Assembly: GCA_001786195.1 (NCBI GenBank)
Contig: MFVS01000027.1
Location: 1-45,866, forward strand
Length of the DNA: 45,866 nt
DNA from: Candidatus Nomurabacteria bacterium RIFCSPLOWO2_12_FULL_40_42
GTDB lineage: Bacteria > Patescibacteriota > Minisyncoccia > Phycocordibacterales > UBA9973
Reading direction: 5' to 3'
Shown here: piece by piece, positions 5,908 to 23,392 of the stretch
Layout of the letters: every line of letters starts with the position of its first letter
Position numbering within the stretch: the first letter of the stretch is position 1
Made by a program: the position numbers and the translations under genes
The notes under the pieces: model-generated
The model's input: only the letters and a program-made list of their open reading frames with translations
Told to the model about the DNA's origin: nothing
The model's database searches: none

Positions 5908-6246
5908 TTATTTTATTTCAAGTTTTTTCTCTATAAAACCTACTCGATTTTCAATTTCTTTGTATGTAATTTTAGAAGCTTTGGTTTCCGCCAAATCATC
6001 TAGTCTTTTATTCGTGCCTTCAAGCCGGTTTTTGACACCCTCGAGTTCTTTTTCAACACCTCCGAGTCGACTTTCAACACCTCCGAGTCGACTTTCAACA
6101 CCTCCGAGTCGACTTTCAACACCTCCGAGTCGACTTTCAACACCGTCAATTTTCTTGGTTAATCTTTCTTCAAAGCCGCTAAAACTACCCGCTATCAATA
6201 CAGCCAAGCCATCAAGGGTCATTTTCTTTTTTACTTCTTTTTTCAT
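5908..6246 (-). CDS. small coiled-coil protein with perfect heptad repeats
   Basis: 112 aa, (GGVESRL)x4 followed by degenerate heptads. Confidence 0.6.
   Translation of the reverse strand: MKKEVKKKMTLDGLAVLIAGSFSGFEERLTKKIDGVESRLGGVESRLGGVESRLGGVESRLGGVEKELEGVKNRLEGTNKRLDDLAETKASKITYKEIENRVGFIEKKLEIK
6058..6141. repeat. 4 x 21 bp perfect tandem repeat (acctccgagtcgactttcaac) encoding GGVESRL heptads
   Basis: four identical units at 6058-6078, 6079-6099, 6100-6120, 6121-6141. Confidence 0.95.
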
Positions 6247-6450
6247 ACATTCTCGATTATACCAAACCTAATTTTTTATACAAGGTTTTTTTGATAAAAT
6301 CCATATCACGGCGGATCTCACGGTTACCGCGTGGCGAAATATCACGACTGTGTGGCAAAAATGGCCTCTGGCTGGCTATATGTGATATGAAAACAAGTAA
6401 AATTGTACAACATTATTTGACACTAATACAAGTTTTGTTTTATTTTAATT

Positions 6451-6490
6451 CACCTCACCCCAACCCTCTCCTTATAAAGGAGAGGGTGAA
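6451..6490. repeat. half copy of twin-hairpin element (CACCTCACCCCAACCCTCTCCTTATAAAGGAGAGGG) that supplies the S74 gene stop codon
   Basis: perfect 10 bp stem at 6464-6486; the TAA stop of the 6472..9630 ORF lies in the loop/stem. Confidence 0.75.
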
Positions 6491-9400
6491 TCTGCCTGTG
6501 GTTCTGGCGCCGGGTTTGGTGTCGGCTCAGACGTTGGTGTCGGCTCGGGATTAGGAACTGGATCCGGATCTTCAGCCGGAGGTTGATCAGCCTTTGGCTG
6601 AGGTTCTGGATCCAGTTTGGGCGTTGATTCTGGATCTGGCTCTGGTGTTACTTCTGGCTCCGGCGCTGGGTTATCTCCCCCGCCCCCTCCTTGATCAAGG
6701 AGGGGGGGATTGCCATTGCCGCCCACCATCGCCTCCAGTTTATCTCCGTCCGCGCAGAATTCTGTACCGTCAGCTTTGGCGACGCAAATCTCCTTGGTAT
6801 GCACTCGATTGGCAAAGAAATCCCCGATTCCATTCTCTACATCCGCAAACCAAGCCGAGACTTTGGTAGACAAGTTGCCCCAGAAAGATCCTTCGGCAGG
6901 AAGAGTTTGAATGTCGTTTATCTTTAGATCCAATTCTTGGATTGCTTTAGCCATAACTGATGTAAGTTTCATATATTCCACTCCTTCTACTTGCCCATTT
7001 TCATAGGTTACGAATAACGGGCTGATCTGCTCCATCTCTTCGGCGATGAATCCGATCTGGCGGGGAGCGTTAGGATTTTTAATATATTCCAACTTCCAAT
7101 CGAACGACACAGGACGCATTCGCATCACCGCATCGAGTCCAAGATTAAGATCTTCAATATTTTTCTTGAAGCGCAATGAGGAACTGCCTGTACAAGCGGT
7201 TGCTTTTGAGCTAATGGCGCCACCAGTTACATCAATACATAAATAATCGTTCGCGTTTGCTCCCGCTTCAGCAGGGAAGAATATGTTGCCGTCGCTTCCT
7301 ATTCTCATTCTTTCAATTGCCGCGGAAGTCGTGGCAGTTCCAAAAACCAGCGCCGTGCTGTTTGTCGTTGCATCAAAAGTCGCTTCGGATTCAGCCCAAA
7401 TTGCCGCACCCGAGAGGATAGCATCAGCACCATCAGACTCCAGCGGAGCATTGAAATTTATTCTACCTAATTGGTCGTCATCCACAATAGTAAGCTCCTT
7501 GGTGGCAAGAGTTAATATGCCAGCCGCCGCCGCTCCTACACCCGTAGGACCCTGTATATCTAAAAGTGACTGAGGAACCGTCGTCCCGATGCCGACGTTG
7601 CCGCTTTTATCAATTCTGACCCTTTCAGTCAATGTGCCACCTGTGTTGTCAGTTAGAAATGCAAGAGAGCCACCATTGCCGCCAGTTGTTTGCACAAGAC
7701 CCCTGATAGCAGATCCATAGGTCGCATCTGACTGACTATATTGAAATTTAATCTGCTGATAATTTTCCGCTGTCCCAGAATTGTTTGACAACAACAACTG
7801 CGTTGCAGTTCCACTGGTTTGGTTTATACCTAACAACGCCCCTGGCCCCGTCGTCCCAATCCCGACGTTGCCTGCTTTTAAGTAGAGAGTATTAGCTATC
7901 GCTCCAGTATTTTCCGAAGTAAGAACATTTACTGAATTTTGAGAGAGAGTAAAATCAGCCCCGGGAGTCAGGCTGGTAATGCCTGCCAGCCCTTCCGCCG
8001 CCGAAGCTCTGTTTAAGGCGTGAGCCGTGGTGCCGATATACATTGTTTGTCCTATACCCGCGAAAGTGGAAGAAAGAGAAGTGTCTCCAACGGTAGGCAT
8101 GTTGCTGAATTCAATGTCCGTGAACCAGCCTTTGGTCACTCTGGCTCCGGTGGCGCCTACATTTCCTGTCATCGTCAAACTGCCGCTTCCTAAAGCTAAT
8201 CCGGCAAATGTCGGGGAAGAAGTGGTGGCCACTGCCTGGTTCTGTCCATCTAAGAAAGCCCATTCGTTGGTGTCCAAAGTGTTTACCCCGATCGCAATGC
8301 TGGTGGCTGTCGCGACTCCTAAGACTGGAGTCACCAAAGTCGGACTCGTGGAAAACACAAGATTTGTAGAAGTCGTTCCAGTAGTCCCCGTGGCGGCATT
8401 TAGATAATTTAACTGCGTACCCGTTGTCGTAACCGAAGTAGCGCCAAGAGTGAATGGGGTGGGCATTGTGACCGTGCCGTTTAGAGAAACTGCTCCAGTG
8501 CCAGTTGAGAAAGTATTGGCGTCGGTTTGAGAAAAAGCGCCTAGGACAGTCAAGCTGTCCACTGTAGTCGCTTCGGTCGTAGTTGATCCGGTCAAAATTA
8601 AATTGTTGCCGTAAATATCTCCCTCGGCATCCACCAAAAATTTCACATCCCCTCCGACAGCGAGTCCGAGAAGGTTGGTATTGAGAGCGGCGGAAGCTGG
8701 ATTGATGTAGAGAGTAGAATCGGAAACATTGGAAGTGCCTGATGGCCAGGTGGTAAAAGCATGGACTAAAGTCGGCACGTGAGTAAAGCTTCCAATGCCC
8801 GCGACTGCAAGCGTCCCTCCCACCGTGGCATTACCCGAGACAGTAAATGCTTCCGTACTCACGGCTTCAGCCAGAGCGCTGGAGAGACCACTTACTCCGT
8901 TTTCGATGGAGTCCAAGATTCTATCAACTTGATTGTCATACAAGGTTCGCGGAACAAATTGGGAAGAATCTAAATTACTACTGCTTCCCGCCGGGCCTCG
9001 GGGACCGACGGGTCCGGGTATTCCTTGAGGACCCTGGGGACCGGTAAGACCGCGGGGACCAACCTCACCCCGGCCCTCTCCCAAGGAGAGGGTGGAATTC
9101 GGAGCCTCCCCCTTTGGGGGAGGTGTGGAGGAGGTAGGCGATCCCCCTGACAAGGGGGAAAGAGGGGGTTGAATTGAAATAGACCCCCCTTCAGTTCCCC
9201 CCTTATTAAGGGGGGAAGGAATTACTGCCACAGTTTTCGGCGTGTAAAAAAGGTAAGCGAGTTCGGAAGTGTATTTATTATAATAGTTGGAAAAGAGAGA
9301 GAAGAAAGAGGAAGCATTGGCGGAGATATTCTCTCCAGCGACATTGGCCGTCATTTTTATATCTGTTTTTATATTTTTTATCTCAGGCAAGATCCTTACT

Positions 9401-9630
9401 ATTTTTTTGGATACCCGCGATATATTTTCCGGTATCTTTGCAGCCGAATCGGAAATATAATTTCGGTAATCATCGAACCAAGACAGATAACTTTCATAAG
9501 GATTCCAGGCGAGAGTGGTCCTCGGAAAAACCGCCATAAAAACAAAAATAACCAAAGCAAAAAACACCCCCAAGGACCTTAAGAGTAGGAATCTTTTTAG
9601 AAGTGTCAAAAAATATTTTTTAGGCTTCAT
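6472..9630 (-). CDS. surface/fibre-like protein: signal/TM, collagen-like Gly-X-Y segment, repeats, C-terminal intramolecular chaperone (peptidase S74) domain, Pro-rich tail
   Basis: GPRGLTGPQGPQGIPGPVGPRGPAG; SSLRFKKNIEDLNLGLDAVMRMRPVSFDWK...QIGFIAEEME S74 signature; PEPEPTP-rich tail. Confidence 0.8.
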   Translation of the reverse strand: MKPKKYFLTLLKRFLLLRSLGVFFALVIFVFMAVFPRTTLAWNPYESYLSWFDDYRNYISDSAAKIPENISRVSKKIVRILPEIKNIKTDIKMTANVAGENISANASSFFSLFSNYYNKYTSELAYLFYTPKTVAVIPSPLNKGGTEGGSISIQPPLSPLSGGSPTSSTPPPKGEAPNSTLSLGEGRGEVGPRGLTGPQGPQGIPGPVGPRGPAGSSSNLDSSQFVPRTLYDNQVDRILDSIENGVSGLSSALAEAVSTEAFTVSGNATVGGTLAVAGIGSFTHVPTLVHAFTTWPSGTSNVSDSTLYINPASAALNTNLLGLAVGGDVKFLVDAEGDIYGNNLILTGSTTTEATTVDSLTVLGAFSQTDANTFSTGTGAVSLNGTVTMPTPFTLGATSVTTTGTQLNYLNAATGTTGTTSTNLVFSTSPTLVTPVLGVATATSIAIGVNTLDTNEWAFLDGQNQAVATTSSPTFAGLALGSGSLTMTGNVGATGARVTKGWFTDIEFSNMPTVGDTSLSSTFAGIGQTMYIGTTAHALNRASAAEGLAGITSLTPGADFTLSQNSVNVLTSENTGAIANTLYLKAGNVGIGTTGPGALLGINQTSGTATQLLLSNNSGTAENYQQIKFQYSQSDATYGSAIRGLVQTTGGNGGSLAFLTDNTGGTLTERVRIDKSGNVGIGTTVPQSLLDIQGPTGVGAAAAGILTLATKELTIVDDDQLGRINFNAPLESDGADAILSGAAIWAESEATFDATTNSTALVFGTATTSAAIERMRIGSDGNIFFPAEAGANANDYLCIDVTGGAISSKATACTGSSSLRFKKNIEDLNLGLDAVMRMRPVSFDWKLEYIKNPNAPRQIGFIAEEMEQISPLFVTYENGQVEGVEYMKLTSVMAKAIQELDLKINDIQTLPAEGSFWGNLSTKVSAWFADVENGIGDFFANRVHTKEICVAKADGTEFCADGDKLEAMVGGNGNPPLLDQGGGGGDNPAPEPEVTPEPDPESTPKLDPEPQPKADQPPAEDPDPVPNPEPTPTSEPTPNPAPEPQADSPSPL
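6683..6706. repeat. 24 bp perfect palindrome CCCCCTCCTTGATCAAGGAGGGGG translated as PPLLDQGGGG
   Basis: read directly; inside the S74 protein CDS. Confidence 0.85.
9061..9220. repeat. two adjacent twin-hairpin elements inside the S74 protein CDS
   Basis: stems CCCTCTCC/GGAGAGGG (9074-9092), CCTCCCCC/GGGGGAGG (about 9105-9123), CCCCCT/AGGGGG (9143-9158), CCCCCC/GGGGGG (9197-9215); all translated. Confidence 0.8.
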
Positions 9631-9720
9631 TTTTTTAATTAGGACTTGTATATTATATCACAAGAATATCAAAGGAAAAACAATAAAAGTGTGGATAACC
9701 CCCTTGCAATAAATTAATAT

Positions 9721-12700
9721 CTAAACCACGATATTCATAAGTCTGTTTTTTATGTAGATCACCTTTCTAATCTCTTTCCCCGCTATATATTTTGCAACTG
9801 ACTCATTTAGAAAAGCTTTCTTTTTTATATCCTCTTCGGTGGCATCTGCCTGCGCCAAAATTTCCGCCCGGACTTTGCCGTTCAACTGGACTGCTATTTT
9901 GACTTCTTCATCTTTGATCAAGTTCGCGTCCCACTTCGGCCAAGTGGAAAGATGAATACTACCCCCTCCAACCTCCCCCAAAGGGGGAGACTTTAATTTC
10001 TCCCTTCCCTTTGGGGAGAGCTGGGGTGAGGTGATCAAACTCCACAATTCTTCGGTGATATGCGGCGCGAAGGGAGCGAGCAGTTGTAAGAATTTTTTGT
10101 AATCAGCCAAACTAACTTCGCTTCGATCCATTTCATTTGCCAGGATCATCAAAGTGGACACTGCAGTATTGAAACGCATAGCTTCGATATCTTCGGAAAC
10201 TTTTTTGATGGTCTTATGCAATAATTTTTTAACCTCTCCTAAATCCTCCCCCAAGGGAAGGACTTTAGTAATTCTTCCCCCCTTCCTTGGGAAGGGGGTA
10301 GGGGGTAGGTTAACTTTGTTGCCTATCCGCCAAACTTTTTCAATAAATCTTCGCGCCCCGATAATGCTTTCAGTAGACCACACAACCGACTGGTCAAACG
10401 GTCCCATAAACATTTCATAAATACGTAAAGTGTCTGCGCCGTAGGTTTTGACGATGTCGTCTGGATTGATAACATTTCCAAGCGATTTTGACATTTTGAC
10501 TCCCCCCTCGCCCAGGATCATGCCATGCGAAGTGCGCTTCATATAGGGCTCATTTGTCGGCACTAGTTTTAAATCATACAAAAATTTGTGCCAAAAACGA
10601 GAATACAAAAGGTGTAGAGTGGTATGCTCATTTCCGCCGTTGTACCAATCCACCCCTCCTATATCCTCCCCAAAGGGGAGAACTTTGGATTTCCCCTTCC
10701 TTTGGAGGGGGCTAGGGGGAGGTGTTAGCCAATATTTCAAATTTTTTTTACCTGCAAATTCTTTTTTATTTTTTGGATCCGCATACCGAAGATAATACCA
10801 AGAACTTCCCGCCCAGTTTGGCATCGTATCTGTTTCCCTTTTTGCTTTTCCGCCACAAATCGGACATTTGACATTGACCCATTTGGTAATATTTACCAGA
10901 GGCGATTCTCCGCTATCCGTCGGCTGATAATTTTTTACTTTAGGCAATTCGACTGGCAAATCTTTCTCCGGCACTGGCACCATTCCGCATTTCTCACAAT
11001 GTATAACCGGAATCGGCTCGCCCCAGTAACGCTGTCTCGAAAAAACCCAGTCGCGGAGCTTGAAAGTGACTTTTTCTTTTCCCCCTATAAATTTTATGAT
11101 TTCTTTCTTTGCTTTTTCGGAATCCATGCCATCAAATTTGCCAGAATTACTCAAAACACCCCCTCCTTCGTAGAAATCTTTTGATTCTCCCTCCAACAAA
11201 TCTGCACCAGTAATAACTTGTTTTATCGGCAATTTATATTTCTTCGCAAACTCAAAATCCCGCTCATCGTGCGCGGGTACGCCCATAATGGCTCTGGTGC
11301 CATAGGTCGAGAGAACGTAATCAGCTATCCAGACAGGAATTTTTTCTTTGTTTGAGGGATTTATAGCATAAGCTCCGGTAAAAACTCCTGTCTTTTCTTT
11401 TTCTAAATTAACTCGCTCTTGCTTATTTTTATTTTTTGATTTAGTTACGTAATTAATTACGTAACTCATTTGTTCGGAAGTTGTGATTTTCTCTACCAAA
11501 GAATGCTCTGGAGAAAGCACCAAGTAAGTCGCGCCAAAAATCGTGTCCGGTCGAGTAGTGAAAACAGTAATATTTCCATCAAATTCCCCCTCCCTTTGGG
11601 AGGGGGTTAGGGGGTGGGTGGAATCAAAAACCCCTCCTAAATCCTCCCCAAGGGGAAGGACTTTAGCTTCGTTCAAGCTATCTAGTTTTTTAATAATTCG
11701 TTTAACAACACTATCTATATTTTCTAAAACTTCTTCATTTCTAAATCTAATAACTTCAAAACCGAGGATTTTAAAAATATCACTTCTCTCTGCATCTTTT
11801 TCTTTTTGTAAATCATGCATATCCCCGTCAATCTCAATGATTAAATTTTTTGAAAGACAAACAAAATCAACAATGAATTTGTTAATAATGTGTTGTTGAC
11901 GAAAATGAAAATTATTTTTATTACCTTTTAGTTCTTGCCATAATTTTCTTTCAGCTTCTGTTGGATTTTCTCGCATTTCAACAGCTTTTTCTTGAAGTAA
12001 TCTGAAATTTTTTGGGTCTGTCGTATGGTATCCAGGTATTTCCCCCTTCTCTTGGGGAAGGGTTGGGGATGGGTGTATTATTTTGAACTGAATTTCCGCT
12101 CCCTCGCTCCGCCATATCCAATTCCTCTGTCCGAGTTTGATCTGCGGTAAATAATCTACCTCATCCAAATCTTTGTAAAGTCTGTCAGCGTATTTGGTAA
12201 TAGCCAGCATCCATTGTTCTTTTTCTCTTTGCTCGACAACCGTCCCACAACGTTCGCAGCAGCCATTTACCACTTCTTCGTTGGCCAGTCCAATTTTATC
12301 CTTCGGGCACCAATTGATCGTCATTTTAGCCTTATACGCTAAACCTTTTTTCAAAAATTGCAAAAATATCCACTGCGTCCATTTGTAATATTTTGGGTCA
12401 GTGGTGTTGATTTCTCGCGACCAATCAAAAGAGATACCTAGAGATTTTATTTGCCTCCGGAATGTATCGCTATTTTTCTTGGTGACAACTCTCGGATCCA
12501 GGCCTGTCTTGATCGCGTAGTTCTCGGTCGGAAGTCCAAACGCATCCCAGCCGATCGGATATAAGACATTGAATCCCTGCAACCTTCTTGTTCGGGAAAT
12601 AACATCCATCCCGATATAGGGCCGCGGATGCCCGACATGCAACCCATCACCCGAAGGATATGGAAATTCAATTAGACTATAATACTTCGGTTTCGAAGAC

Positions 12701-12783
12701 AAATCTTTGGCATGATAAATTCCTTTTTTTTCCCAAATTTCCTGCCATTTTTTTTCTATCTTTTTGTGGTCATATTCACGCAT
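9721..12783 (-). CDS. leuS: leucyl-tRNA synthetase with several in-frame insertions
   Basis: YPSGDGLHVGHPRPY (HIGH), GVKMSKSLGNV (KMSKS), FTTRPDTIFGATY editing domain, WAGSSWYYLRY. Confidence 0.95.
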   Translation of the reverse strand: MREYDHKKIEKKWQEIWEKKGIYHAKDLSSKPKYYSLIEFPYPSGDGLHVGHPRPYIGMDVISRTRRLQGFNVLYPIGWDAFGLPTENYAIKTGLDPRVVTKKNSDTFRRQIKSLGISFDWSREINTTDPKYYKWTQWIFLQFLKKGLAYKAKMTINWCPKDKIGLANEEVVNGCCERCGTVVEQREKEQWMLAITKYADRLYKDLDEVDYLPQIKLGQRNWIWRSEGAEIQFKIIHPSPTLPQEKGEIPGYHTTDPKNFRLLQEKAVEMRENPTEAERKLWQELKGNKNNFHFRQQHIINKFIVDFVCLSKNLIIEIDGDMHDLQKEKDAERSDIFKILGFEVIRFRNEEVLENIDSVVKRIIKKLDSLNEAKVLPLGEDLGGVFDSTHPLTPSQREGEFDGNITVFTTRPDTIFGATYLVLSPEHSLVEKITTSEQMSYVINYVTKSKNKNKQERVNLEKEKTGVFTGAYAINPSNKEKIPVWIADYVLSTYGTRAIMGVPAHDERDFEFAKKYKLPIKQVITGADLLEGESKDFYEGGGVLSNSGKFDGMDSEKAKKEIIKFIGGKEKVTFKLRDWVFSRQRYWGEPIPVIHCEKCGMVPVPEKDLPVELPKVKNYQPTDSGESPLVNITKWVNVKCPICGGKAKRETDTMPNWAGSSWYYLRYADPKNKKEFAGKKNLKYWLTPPPSPLQRKGKSKVLPFGEDIGGVDWYNGGNEHTTLHLLYSRFWHKFLYDLKLVPTNEPYMKRTSHGMILGEGGVKMSKSLGNVINPDDIVKTYGADTLRIYEMFMGPFDQSVVWSTESIIGARRFIEKVWRIGNKVNLPPTPFPRKGGRITKVLPLGEDLGEVKKLLHKTIKKVSEDIEAMRFNTAVSTLMILANEMDRSEVSLADYKKFLQLLAPFAPHITEELWSLITSPQLSPKGREKLKSPPLGEVGGGSIHLSTWPKWDANLIKDEEVKIAVQLNGKVRAEILAQADATEEDIKKKAFLNESVAKYIAGKEIRKVIYIKNRLMNIVV
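9959..10036. repeat. twin-hairpin element A in leuS (translated TSPQLSPKGREKLKSPPLGEVGGGS)
   Basis: CTCCCCCAAAGGGGGAG + TCCCTTCCCTTTGGGGAGAG hairpins. Confidence 0.85.
10231..10312. repeat. twin-hairpin element B in leuS (translated LPPTPFPRKGGRITKVLPLGEDLGEV)
   Basis: ends match those of the DUF559-bearing element at 11581-12077. Confidence 0.85.
10649..10728. repeat. twin-hairpin element C in leuS (translated TPPPSPLQRKGKSKVLPFGEDIGGV)
   Basis: ends match elements B and D; splits KYWLP/VDWYNGG. Confidence 0.85.
11581..12077 (-). mobile_element. element D: DUF559 (Vsr-like PD-(D/E)XK) nuclease module with hairpin termini, in-frame inside the leuS editing domain
   Basis: EMRENPTEAERKLWQELKGNKNNFHFRQQHIINKFIVDFVCLSKNLIIEIDGDMHDLQKEKDAERSDIFKILGFEVIRFRNEEV = DUF559; flanked by GC-rich hairpins. 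Confidence 0.8.
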
Positions 12784-12788
12784 ACAAC

Positions 12789-13769
12789 TTATTTAGCAAT
12801 ATATTTTTTATTGATATTTATTGAAACATATCCAAGTCCGATAAAGATAAAACCGAGAATAACAAGTGCAACCGGCCAGCCTACTGAATCTGCAAAATAT
12901 TCACCGGTAATATAAGAAACATGCGCCAGCAGAAAACAAGTGCTGACTACTAATATGGCCCGACTTTTTGTATATGCTGACAAAAACAGACCTCCGATGA
13001 CAAGCAGAAAGTAAACCATTTGCCAAGGAACAGAATCAAATACTCGAGAGAATGCCGCGCCCAGGAAACCAGCACTGCCGAAGAAATAAAGAATCCCGAC
13101 AAGTTTGTTATTCCAGCCGCCGCGAAAAGCGTGCGCCAATAAAAGATAACTAGCTCCTACAACCATAGTGAGATACGCGTACAAATCTTCATGTCTATAA
13201 AACGGACCATCGATCATCGCTTCGACTAGGAGATAAATAAAAGCGGTGCCATTCGCTATGGCAAAAAAAGTTAAAACTGAACTTCTATGAGCAAAATTTA
13301 ACAGTAAATAAAATACAAAAATAGCTCCAAAGGTAATTGCAATTGGCCATACGGAAACCATGTCCACATTGAGTTCGGAGAGGGCAACTACTGCCCCTCC
13401 AGGAACAAGCAGGCCTCCTATTGCGTGAAATACGGAACCAATAGTTTGATTTTCCGGTTTGGATTTTAGCAAAACTGATCCAATAACTGTAAACAGTAAA
13501 CCTAAGCCCAGAGTGACCGATATGCGCCCCAAGGACCCCAGATCATCCCAGACTTGATAAACAAAAATAATAATTCCAATGACCACGATAGCTGCGCCTA
13601 AAACATATAACATTTTGGTCATGGAAAAATGCGTGGAATCTTTCGGAGTTGCGCTTATCTCTCTTCCAGCGCTCGGTGTAAGACTCAATCTACTAATCAA
13701 CTCTTCACGGCTTATTTCACCTGCGTTTATGCCTTTCTCAAGTTCTTGAAGCAATTCTTCTTTGTTCAT
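12789..13769 (-). CDS. multi-TM membrane protein, DUF2157-like
   Basis: 326 aa, about 9 TM segments. Confidence 0.5.
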   Translation of the reverse strand: MNKEELLQELEKGINAGEISREELISRLSLTPSAGREISATPKDSTHFSMTKMLYVLGAAIVVIGIIIFVYQVWDDLGSLGRISVTLGLGLLFTVIGSVLLKSKPENQTIGSVFHAIGGLLVPGGAVVALSELNVDMVSVWPIAITFGAIFVFYLLLNFAHRSSVLTFFAIANGTAFIYLLVEAMIDGPFYRHEDLYAYLTMVVGASYLLLAHAFRGGWNNKLVGILYFFGSAGFLGAAFSRVFDSVPWQMVYFLLVIGGLFLSAYTKSRAILVVSTCFLLAHVSYITGEYFADSVGWPVALVILGFIFIGLGYVSININKKYIAK

Positions 13770-21427: not shown

Positions 21428-21480
21428 TTAGTCAAAATAATTCTTCAACCTCGAAATCTTGTCGTGTTGGCGGAGTTTTT
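21428..21480. repeat. 53 bp exact duplicate of the rpoD 3' end (second copy 22184-22236)
   Basis: ttagtcaaaataattcttcaacctcgaaatcttgtcgtgttggcggagttttt identical at both sites. Confidence 0.97.
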
Positions 21481-21552: not shown

Positions 21553-22119
21553 ATGGATATGCGTTTAATTGATCGAGAATCAAACTCTGGAAAAATAATC
21601 CGGGCTTTAGGCATGGGAATAGGTATATCCGTGGCTTTAGCTAATAGAAGAACAAGTTATAGAATGACAAAGATCTTAATCAAGAAAATTTTTGGTTTGA
21701 ATGAAGAACCCACAAATTATTCTAGATATTTTTTAAAATTAAGAAAACAAAAACTCATATACATTAAAAAGGTGGGCAATGATCATATTATATCTCTCAC
21801 AGAAAAAGGTGAAGAGATTTACTTAAGATTTAATTACGAAAAATTAGCAATAAAGCCAAGCAGAATATGGGACAGAAATTTCCGCATGGTTATTTTTGAT
21901 ATTCCAGAAACAAAGAGAAATTCCAGGGATTCGCTTCGAGAAAAAATGAAAGAGTTGGGTTTGGTAAAATTTAATGATAGCGTTTGGGTTTATCCTTATC
22001 CATGCCAACAAGAAATCGATTTTATTGCTAACTATTGGGAAATAGGAAAATATGTTCATTTTGCCTTGGTTAAAGATGTAACTAATAGAGAACGTCTGGA
22101 AAAATATTTCAACTTATAA
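21553..22119 (+). CDS. PaaX/Cas2-like protein (N-terminal winged helix, C-terminal Cas2-like ferredoxin fold)
   Basis: YFLKLRKQKLIYIKKVGNDHIISLTEKG wHTH; RNFRMVIFDIPETKRNSRDSLREKMKELGLVKFNDSVWVYPY. Confidence 0.7.
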   Translation: MDMRLIDRESNSGKIIRALGMGIGISVALANRRTSYRMTKILIKKIFGLNEEPTNYSRYFLKLRKQKLIYIKKVGNDHIISLTEKGEEIYLRFNYEKLAIKPSRIWDRNFRMVIFDIPETKRNSRDSLREKMKELGLVKFNDSVWVYPYPCQQEIDFIANYWEIGKYVHFALVKDVTNRERLEKYFNL

Positions 22120-22183: not shown

Positions 22184-23392
22184 TTAGTCAAAATAATTCT
22201 TCAACCTCGAAATCTTGTCGTGTTGGCGGAGTTTTTCGTGGACTTTGACTTCGATTTGGCGGATACGCTCGCGGGTCACGCCGAATTCTTCCCCTACCCG
22301 CTCGAGCGTGTGTTGGATGCCGTCTAGGAGACCATAGCGCATTTCGAGAATCTTGCGTTCTTTGGGATTGAGTTCGCATAAAACTTCCCGAATCTGATCT
22401 GAGAGAATCCGGCGAGAAGATTCTTGATCCGGACGTAAAATTTTATCATCCGGAATAAAATTTTCTAAGGTTGATTTGTCGTCATCATCACCGACCGGCT
22501 GTTCAAGTGATACTGTCTCTTGCGAAATATTTTCGATGATGTGAATTTTTTCCACCGGGATGCCCATCTCGGTGGCAATCTCTTCGGCCAACGGCTCTCG
22601 ACCTAAATCTTGGGAAAGCCTGCGATGCGTCTGTTTATATTTCGAAATTGTCTCTACCATGTGCACCGGTATGCGGATAGTGCGAGATTGGTCGGCCAAG
22701 GCGCGGGTAATAGACTGGCGAATCCACCATGTCGCATAAGTGGAAAATTTATATCCCTTGGTCCAATCGAATTTTTCCACTGCCTTGAACAATCCCAAAT
22801 TGCCTTCCTGAATCAAGTCAAGCAGAGTTAAATTGGCAGAGCGTCCTACGTATTTTTTGGCGATAGAAACCACTAAACGCAAGTTCGCGCGGGCGAGCAG
22901 ATTTTTGGCTTCCAGATCACCGTGTTCGATGCGTCTGGCGAGTTCCTTTTCTTCGCCCGCATGGATAAGCGGATACTGACCGATCTCTTTCAAATACATC
23001 TGAATTGAATCATGCATCGTGGATTTGTTCAAATCTTTGTCGGTCAAGTCGACATTCAAATTGAGCAAGTTTCCGCCTTCCAAGACATCAATCCCGGCAA
23101 TGGCAAACTTTTCGTAAAGCTCGTCTAAGAATAAAATGTTGTTTTCAATATCCGGGAAAGTTTTTAAGATTTCATCGTAAGTGATAAATCCCCTCTTGCG
23201 CCCCTTTTCGATGAGCTCGCTTGAGATACGAGTTAAATTTTCCGCCTTTTTTTCCAAAAATGCCAGTTTGAGAGGAAATTTTTTGGAAATTTTTAATTTT
23301 TTTATTTTAAGTTTTTTACTCTTTGGTTTTTTTGCCATCTTGTGTTTTCTAATTTTTGTACTAACTTTTTTTGTCTTTTTTGTTGTTTTCAT
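22184..23392 (-). CDS. rpoD: RNA polymerase sigma-70 factor RpoD
   Basis: [71 protein letters not shown]. Confidence 0.97.

Follow-up and report, generated by a model that had tools for sequence, protein, structure and literature searches.

BoxC/PIT repeats in coding genes of a Nomurabacteria genome and their association with DUF559 nuclease genes across bacteria

Repeat halves in the S74 and leuS genes

The window, which is the whole 45,866-nucleotide stretch analysed (contig MFVS01000027.1 of Candidatus Nomurabacteria bacterium RIFCSPLOWO2_12_FULL_40_42), carries palindromic repeats in two genes. One gene encodes a surface or fibre-like protein with a Peptidase_S74 domain (1.9e-12; ORF 6472-9630, minus strand) and the other encodes leucyl-tRNA synthetase. 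All matches to the covariance model of the repeat half within the 45.9-kb window belong to the S74 ORF or to leuS. The features are as follows.

6452..6488, minus strand: BoxC-like half (tail and hairpin), 59 bits, E 1e-22
6472..9630, minus strand: first host ORF, S74 (intramolecular chaperone) surface/fibre-like protein, 1052 aa
6673..6711, minus strand: BoxC-like half with a perfect 24-bp palindrome (6683-6706), E 3e-7
9062..9135, unstranded: two-half element, tails out (tail-hairpin / hairpin-tail), model E 5e-16 and 5e-4
9142..9222, unstranded: second two-half element, tails in (hairpin-tail / tail-hairpin), from sequence, best E 2e-5
9721..12783, minus strand: second host ORF, leucyl-tRNA synthetase, 1020 aa, four element sites
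9960..10035, unstranded: two-half element in leuS (TSPQLSPKGREKLKSPPLGEVGGG)
10231..10313, unstranded: two-half element in leuS
10651..10725, unstranded: two-half element in leuS, absent or shortened at this site in most relatives
11586..11615, plus strand: extra half beside the DUF559 insert
11630..11667, minus strand: half bounding the DUF559 insert on the 3' side (leuS sense), hairpin inside, tail outside
11683..11994, minus strand: DUF559 (PF04480) EDxHD-type endonuclease domain, inserted in frame ahead of the editing domain of leuS
12042..12074, plus strand: half bounding the DUF559 insert on the 5' side (leuS sense)

The palindromes first described in a sequence-only reading of the S74 gene (two in tandem at 9061-9220, one at 6683-6706 and a half element at 6451-6490) are all present and stand far above chance expectation, with a best match of 1e-22. 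That match, at 6452-6488, is the top-scoring half of the window. The same reading had placed the stop codon of the gene within the stem of this half, and the TAA stop (the complement of 6472-6474) was found to span the inner stem and loop of the hairpin. The half around the palindrome 6683-6706 has its tail at 6673-6682 and is read in frame as NPPLLDQGGGGG. The left half of element 9062-9135 has the type-B spacer CCG, and the covariance-model match inside element 9142-9222 covers 9183-9217. The elements of this ORF are translated as PPLSPLSGGSPTSSTPPPKGEAPNSTLSLGEGRGEV, which is the low-complexity PPLSPL.. reading reported earlier. Those at 9061-9220 had also been described as lying in the opposite orientation to those of leuS. 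The elements exist, but this contrast carries little meaning because each element is an inverted pair of halves and both nestings occur. At 6017-6142, a short way below the S74 ORF, lie 21-bp tandem repeats (CCTCCGAGTCGACTTTCAACA), and two identical 53-bp direct repeats (21428-21480 and 22184-22236) stand on either side of a PaaX_M/Cas2-like ORF (21553-22119). An Rfam search of positions 6000-12800 gave no match, and no splicing element was recognised by it in the leuS region.

An iterated profile search of the 767-kb genome (G000; 326 bases of one contig left out) yielded 84 half-element matches at about 49 places. Each half consists of a pyrimidine arm, a loop, a purine arm, a three-base spacer (TTA, TTG, CTG or CCG) and a purine tail, which is a mirror copy of the purine arm of its own half. 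Own tails match the arms better than swapped tails do (z=7.4 in this genome, where 0/500 tail permutations reach the observed value; z=13.4 for the flanks of DUF559 genes across bacteria and 7.7 for those in the phylum). Inverted pairs of unlike halves are present, as at 9062-9135.

BoxC/PIT repeats have been known since the 1990s and, to our knowledge, have so far been without an explained origin. The BoxC/PIT/TM motif was described in hundreds of genomes as a half of about 37 nt that occurs in inverted pairs, with a spacer of the TTA or CCG type and a purine tail that is the mirror image of the arm (Holder et al., 2015; PMC4666352). In E. coli, the motif was reported to form a single-strand triplex in vitro, its copies were always intergenic, transposases and integrases were not found nearby, and its loci are reportedly unstable (PMC4666352). 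Hairpin, mirroring tail, TTA and CCG spacers and inverted pairs all recur in the halves of this genome. Judged from these sequence traits, the palindromes of the window are the BoxC/PIT intrastrand-triplex motif and not a new family. TTG and CTG spacers are additional to the two types (TTA, CCG) of E. coli BoxC.

Placement of the repeat in coding sequence

Unlike the intergenic BoxC of E. coli, 40 of the 49 places in this genome lie inside ORFs; 4 are at an ORF edge and 5 are intergenic. Random placement would give 86, 8 and 6 per cent, respectively, which puts the ORF share at chance level. The hosts include LeuS, LepA, PurL, PurN-PurD, TopA, UvrA, polynucleotide phosphorylase, IleRS, BipA, LigA (two copies) and RNase R. 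The proposal that one repeat family has been inserted repeatedly and in frame into genes, and can provide a stop codon, is right. Of 20 copies tested in a further 15 genomes of the phylum, 10 were inside ORFs, some of them short or doubtful; full tolerance of coding sequence is therefore not general.

Comparison with genus relatives showed that copies are polymorphic and not fixed in all relatives. The element is absent in 3/3 relatives at the AAA ATPase (DnaX-like) site and at the first LigA site, and the TopA and BipA sites are empty in both orthologues seen. In RNase R, the element is present in relative G005 and missing in G024. Orthologues of the S74 fibre protein were found in 8/41 genomes and are too divergent for a site-by-site comparison (best match 64% over about 117 aa); the element was in none of these 8 highly divergent loci.

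Several element sites have features of their own. The purN and purD genes are fused exactly at a BoxC-type element in G000 (contig C17:42860-44761) and are separate ORFs in G005 and G024. In the 1312-aa IleRS ORF (contig C8:90934-94872), a histidine-phosphatase match covers aa 506-590, a BoxC-type element follows at aa 845-859, and an HD domain lies close to the C-terminus. On contigs C14, C17, C32, C6 and C8 there are five almost identical two-half elements, 68-78 bp long and with ends of the ACCTCATCCCCCGCC...GGGGTGAGGT type. Such a set suggests a recent burst; four of its members lie inside ORFs and one overlaps an ORF end.

Rickettsia palindromic elements are palindromes inserted in frame in many genes, and they had been named as a precedent. 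As an analogy this holds, since insertion into coding genes is in frame and polymorphic in both; identity does not, since the present family, judged by its motif, is BoxC/PIT and is spread over many phyla.

The element had also been read as open in both orientations and perhaps selected for translatability. Of six frames, 3.47 are open in full elements and 2.39 in random genome windows, so openness as such is real. Their dinucleotide shuffles have 3.53, and the claim of selection for translatability fails on this equality; openness is a matter of composition and follows from the G/C-rich, A/T-poor make-up of the elements. It is most improbable that they are kept in coding sequence because they were selected to be open in all frames, since roughly every second copy tested elsewhere in the phylum is intergenic, as all E. 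coli copies are reported to be (PMC4666352).

DUF559 nuclease genes bordered by the repeat

The sequence-only reading overlooked a DUF559 nuclease inside leuS that is key to the repeat family. This domain sits in frame between two repeat halves. Its predicted structure (pLDDT 81) matches PDB 3hrl (NGO0050; TM 0.76) and 3r3p (the catalytic domain of I-Bth0305I; TM 0.72), followed by Vsr, and a sequence search agrees. With its conserved E, D, E-x-D-G and H residues, it is modelled as a homing-type EDxHD (PD-(D/E)XK) endonuclease fold with catalytic-type residues; an earlier paper had already placed DUF559 in the EDxHD family (PMC9403480). According to a review, I-Bth0305I forms a dimer on a target of nearly 60 bp (PMC3943268), roughly the length of a two-half element. 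That enzyme is borne by a group I intron, whereas DUF559 is bordered by BoxC halves instead. The leuS domain had no match in a defence-system library.

The leuS DUF559 domain occurs in six genus members, with catalytic-type residues kept in nearly all of them. The copies form one clade and therefore represent one old insertion that was vertically inherited. In G001 and G013, this site is occupied by a short element alone. LeuS ranges from about 765 to 1173 aa in the genus because of the presence or absence of inserts. Halves have in turn been inserted into the DUF559 stretch, as one lies at the same place within it in both G006 (L064) and G011 (L069). Other in-frame LeuS domains were seen, namely an alpha/beta-hydrolase-like one (RBBP9-like by eye) at the edit-site loop in G008 (L062) and G011 (L069), and a NUDIX domain in G023 (L060). 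The only other DUF559 match in the present genome adjoins an element (C30:1087-1169).

The association between DUF559 and the repeat extends across bacteria. The genomes compared are mostly metagenome assemblies, and the 80 loci analysed across bacteria are those closest to one four-sequence query and sample one part of DUF559. A domain-anchored test, run before the ORF-anchored versions, set the two flanks against displaced windows. The inverted similarity of the flanks lay above the 95th percentile of these windows in 81% of the 79 loci taken from across bacteria (p=3e-41) and in 87.5% of 24 strong loci in the phylum (p=1e-14). Anchoring on the ORF gave p=0.02, a weak result because DUF559 ORFs run into the repeats; when the windows were extended 100 bp into the ORF, it gave p=4e-11. 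A profile built only from the halves of this genome found a half within 150 bp in 67/80 DUF559 loci and halves on both sides in 38/80. Half density was 5.6 per kb at DUF559 borders and 0.065 per kb beyond 400 bp, an 86-fold difference. Inverted hairpin/tail repeats enclose 20 DUF559 loci of the genus, and in some of these the ends are extended, for example AATACAACCC...GGGTTGTATT. These genus loci are nested as tail-hairpin-DUF559-hairpin-tail, and most others as hairpin-tail-DUF559-tail-hairpin. Two other genomes have DUF559 in frame within an Elp3-like radical-SAM gene or fused to dxr. Weak or distant DUF559 members (L111-L115) had no such borders.

The DUF559 gene of E. coli is ycjD (DUF559 in the PGAP annotation), which lies between sapF and fabI. 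A BoxC-type copy with a TTA spacer follows downstream of ycjD in the sapF-fabI interval. The upstream side has an inverted repeat outside the BoxC model, unlike the BoxC-bordered loci. At least 80% of the region is present in 3363/5426 genomes, and strains without ycjD have a different segment after sapF and not a clean empty site. No paper linking DUF559 or ycjD with BoxC was found among the open-licence papers searched, and the link counts as new only within that scope.

The number of repeats also follows DUF559. Among 145 genomes of the phylum, those with a strong DUF559 match have a median of 29 halves and those without have 1 (OR 65, p=1e-14; counts per genome, statistics ignoring kinship). 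The exceptions are 9/120 genomes without a strong match that hold at least 10 halves and 4/25 with one that hold fewer. The inverted hairpin pairs look like REPINs, and five Y1_Tnp genes are present in this genome. In REPIN/RAYT systems, too, hairpins in inverted pairs form miniature elements whose partner gene lies elsewhere; the present family differs in its partner, DUF559 and not a Y1 transposase, and in its tail, which mirrors the arm. Y1_Tnp showed no comparable link to half abundance (OR 3.5), none of 34 Y1 loci had a half within 400 bp, and genomes with Y1 and without DUF559 had a median of 1 half. A RAYT or Y1 transposase was rejected as the mobiliser on these grounds, and REPIN-like elements moved by such an enzyme are very improbable.

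Could DUF559 instead be a Vsr-like repair nuclease, with the adjacent BoxC a bystander such as a terminator or a relic of local instability? When a cytosine methylase is missing, the DUF559 protein VsrA of Caulobacter elicits an SOS response, and it was proposed to act in mismatch repair (PMC12907096); the reported instability of BoxC loci in E. coli (PMC4666352) points the same way. DUF559 borders are, however, two-sided and inverted, the copy numbers of halves follow the DUF559 gene, and DUF559 is found in frame within unrelated genes together with its borders. This explanation is accordingly regarded as improbable.

Mobility of the repeat and what it means

Since BoxC borders DUF559 genes across bacteria, DUF559 is the best candidate yet for spreading the repeat. 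A mobile element with the DUF559 homing-type endonuclease as its single gene is probably behind the BoxC/PIT repeats, which would be its termini and its miniature, non-autonomous copies. Like MITEs, the miniature copies share terminal inverted repeats with a relative that bears the gene, here DUF559. The nuclease would recognise the BoxC hairpin or triplex and would cut or nick there. During repair, either a bare BoxC site could receive the nuclease gene or a new site the short hairpin pair, in both cases without target duplication. The copies in the S74 gene would be passengers. Because elements so rich in G/C and poor in A/T keep usable frames open, some may end up as harmless loops or supply a new C-terminus.

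The best reading is that DUF559 moves the repeats, and its main rival is that DUF559 homes into them. Under the latter, BoxC would spread by other means, such as replication slippage or hairpin-templated repair, and DUF559 would target BoxC so that its gene lands between halves. Both nestings of the halves around DUF559 and the lack of visible target duplications leave room for such homing, as do the resemblance of DUF559 to a true homing endonuclease and the leuS site, which has only the short element in G001 and G013 and DUF559 in six species. Homing alone leaves the roughly 30-fold abundance of BoxC in DUF559 genomes unexplained, unless cutting also spreads repeats, and it is considered unlikely as the full account.

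Several observations count against DUF559 as the mover. The two nestings, with hairpin outside or tail outside, are unexplained by a single transposon form. No target-site duplication was seen by eye in the element flanks, for which there was no close empty site to compare, and no clean empty site was found in the E. coli strains or the genomes compared. The leuS DUF559 is a single clade from one old insertion, VsrA of Caulobacter was proposed as a mismatch-repair enzyme (PMC12907096), weak or distant DUF559 members lack borders, and abundance has its exceptions (9/120 and 4/25).

With DUF559 as the mover, a wider picture has a somewhat better than even chance of being right: a bacteria-wide selfish element with a single small homing nuclease (DUF559), of which BoxC would be the mobile ends and the miniatures, and which in some small-genome bacteria sits inside essential proteins, with the nuclease as an in-frame domain (LeuS). 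BoxC/PIT motifs are abundant in many bacteria, and in the main study on them no mobility gene was reported nearby; the question of their mobility gains a named and testable enzyme through the two-sided, bacteria-wide association with DUF559. In turn, this widespread domain of unknown function, including E. coli ycjD, gains a candidate role. The inserts in loops of LeuS, LigA, TopA and other proteins and the purN-purD fusion at an element point to a route by which selfish DNA may add peptides, domains and fusions to core proteins.
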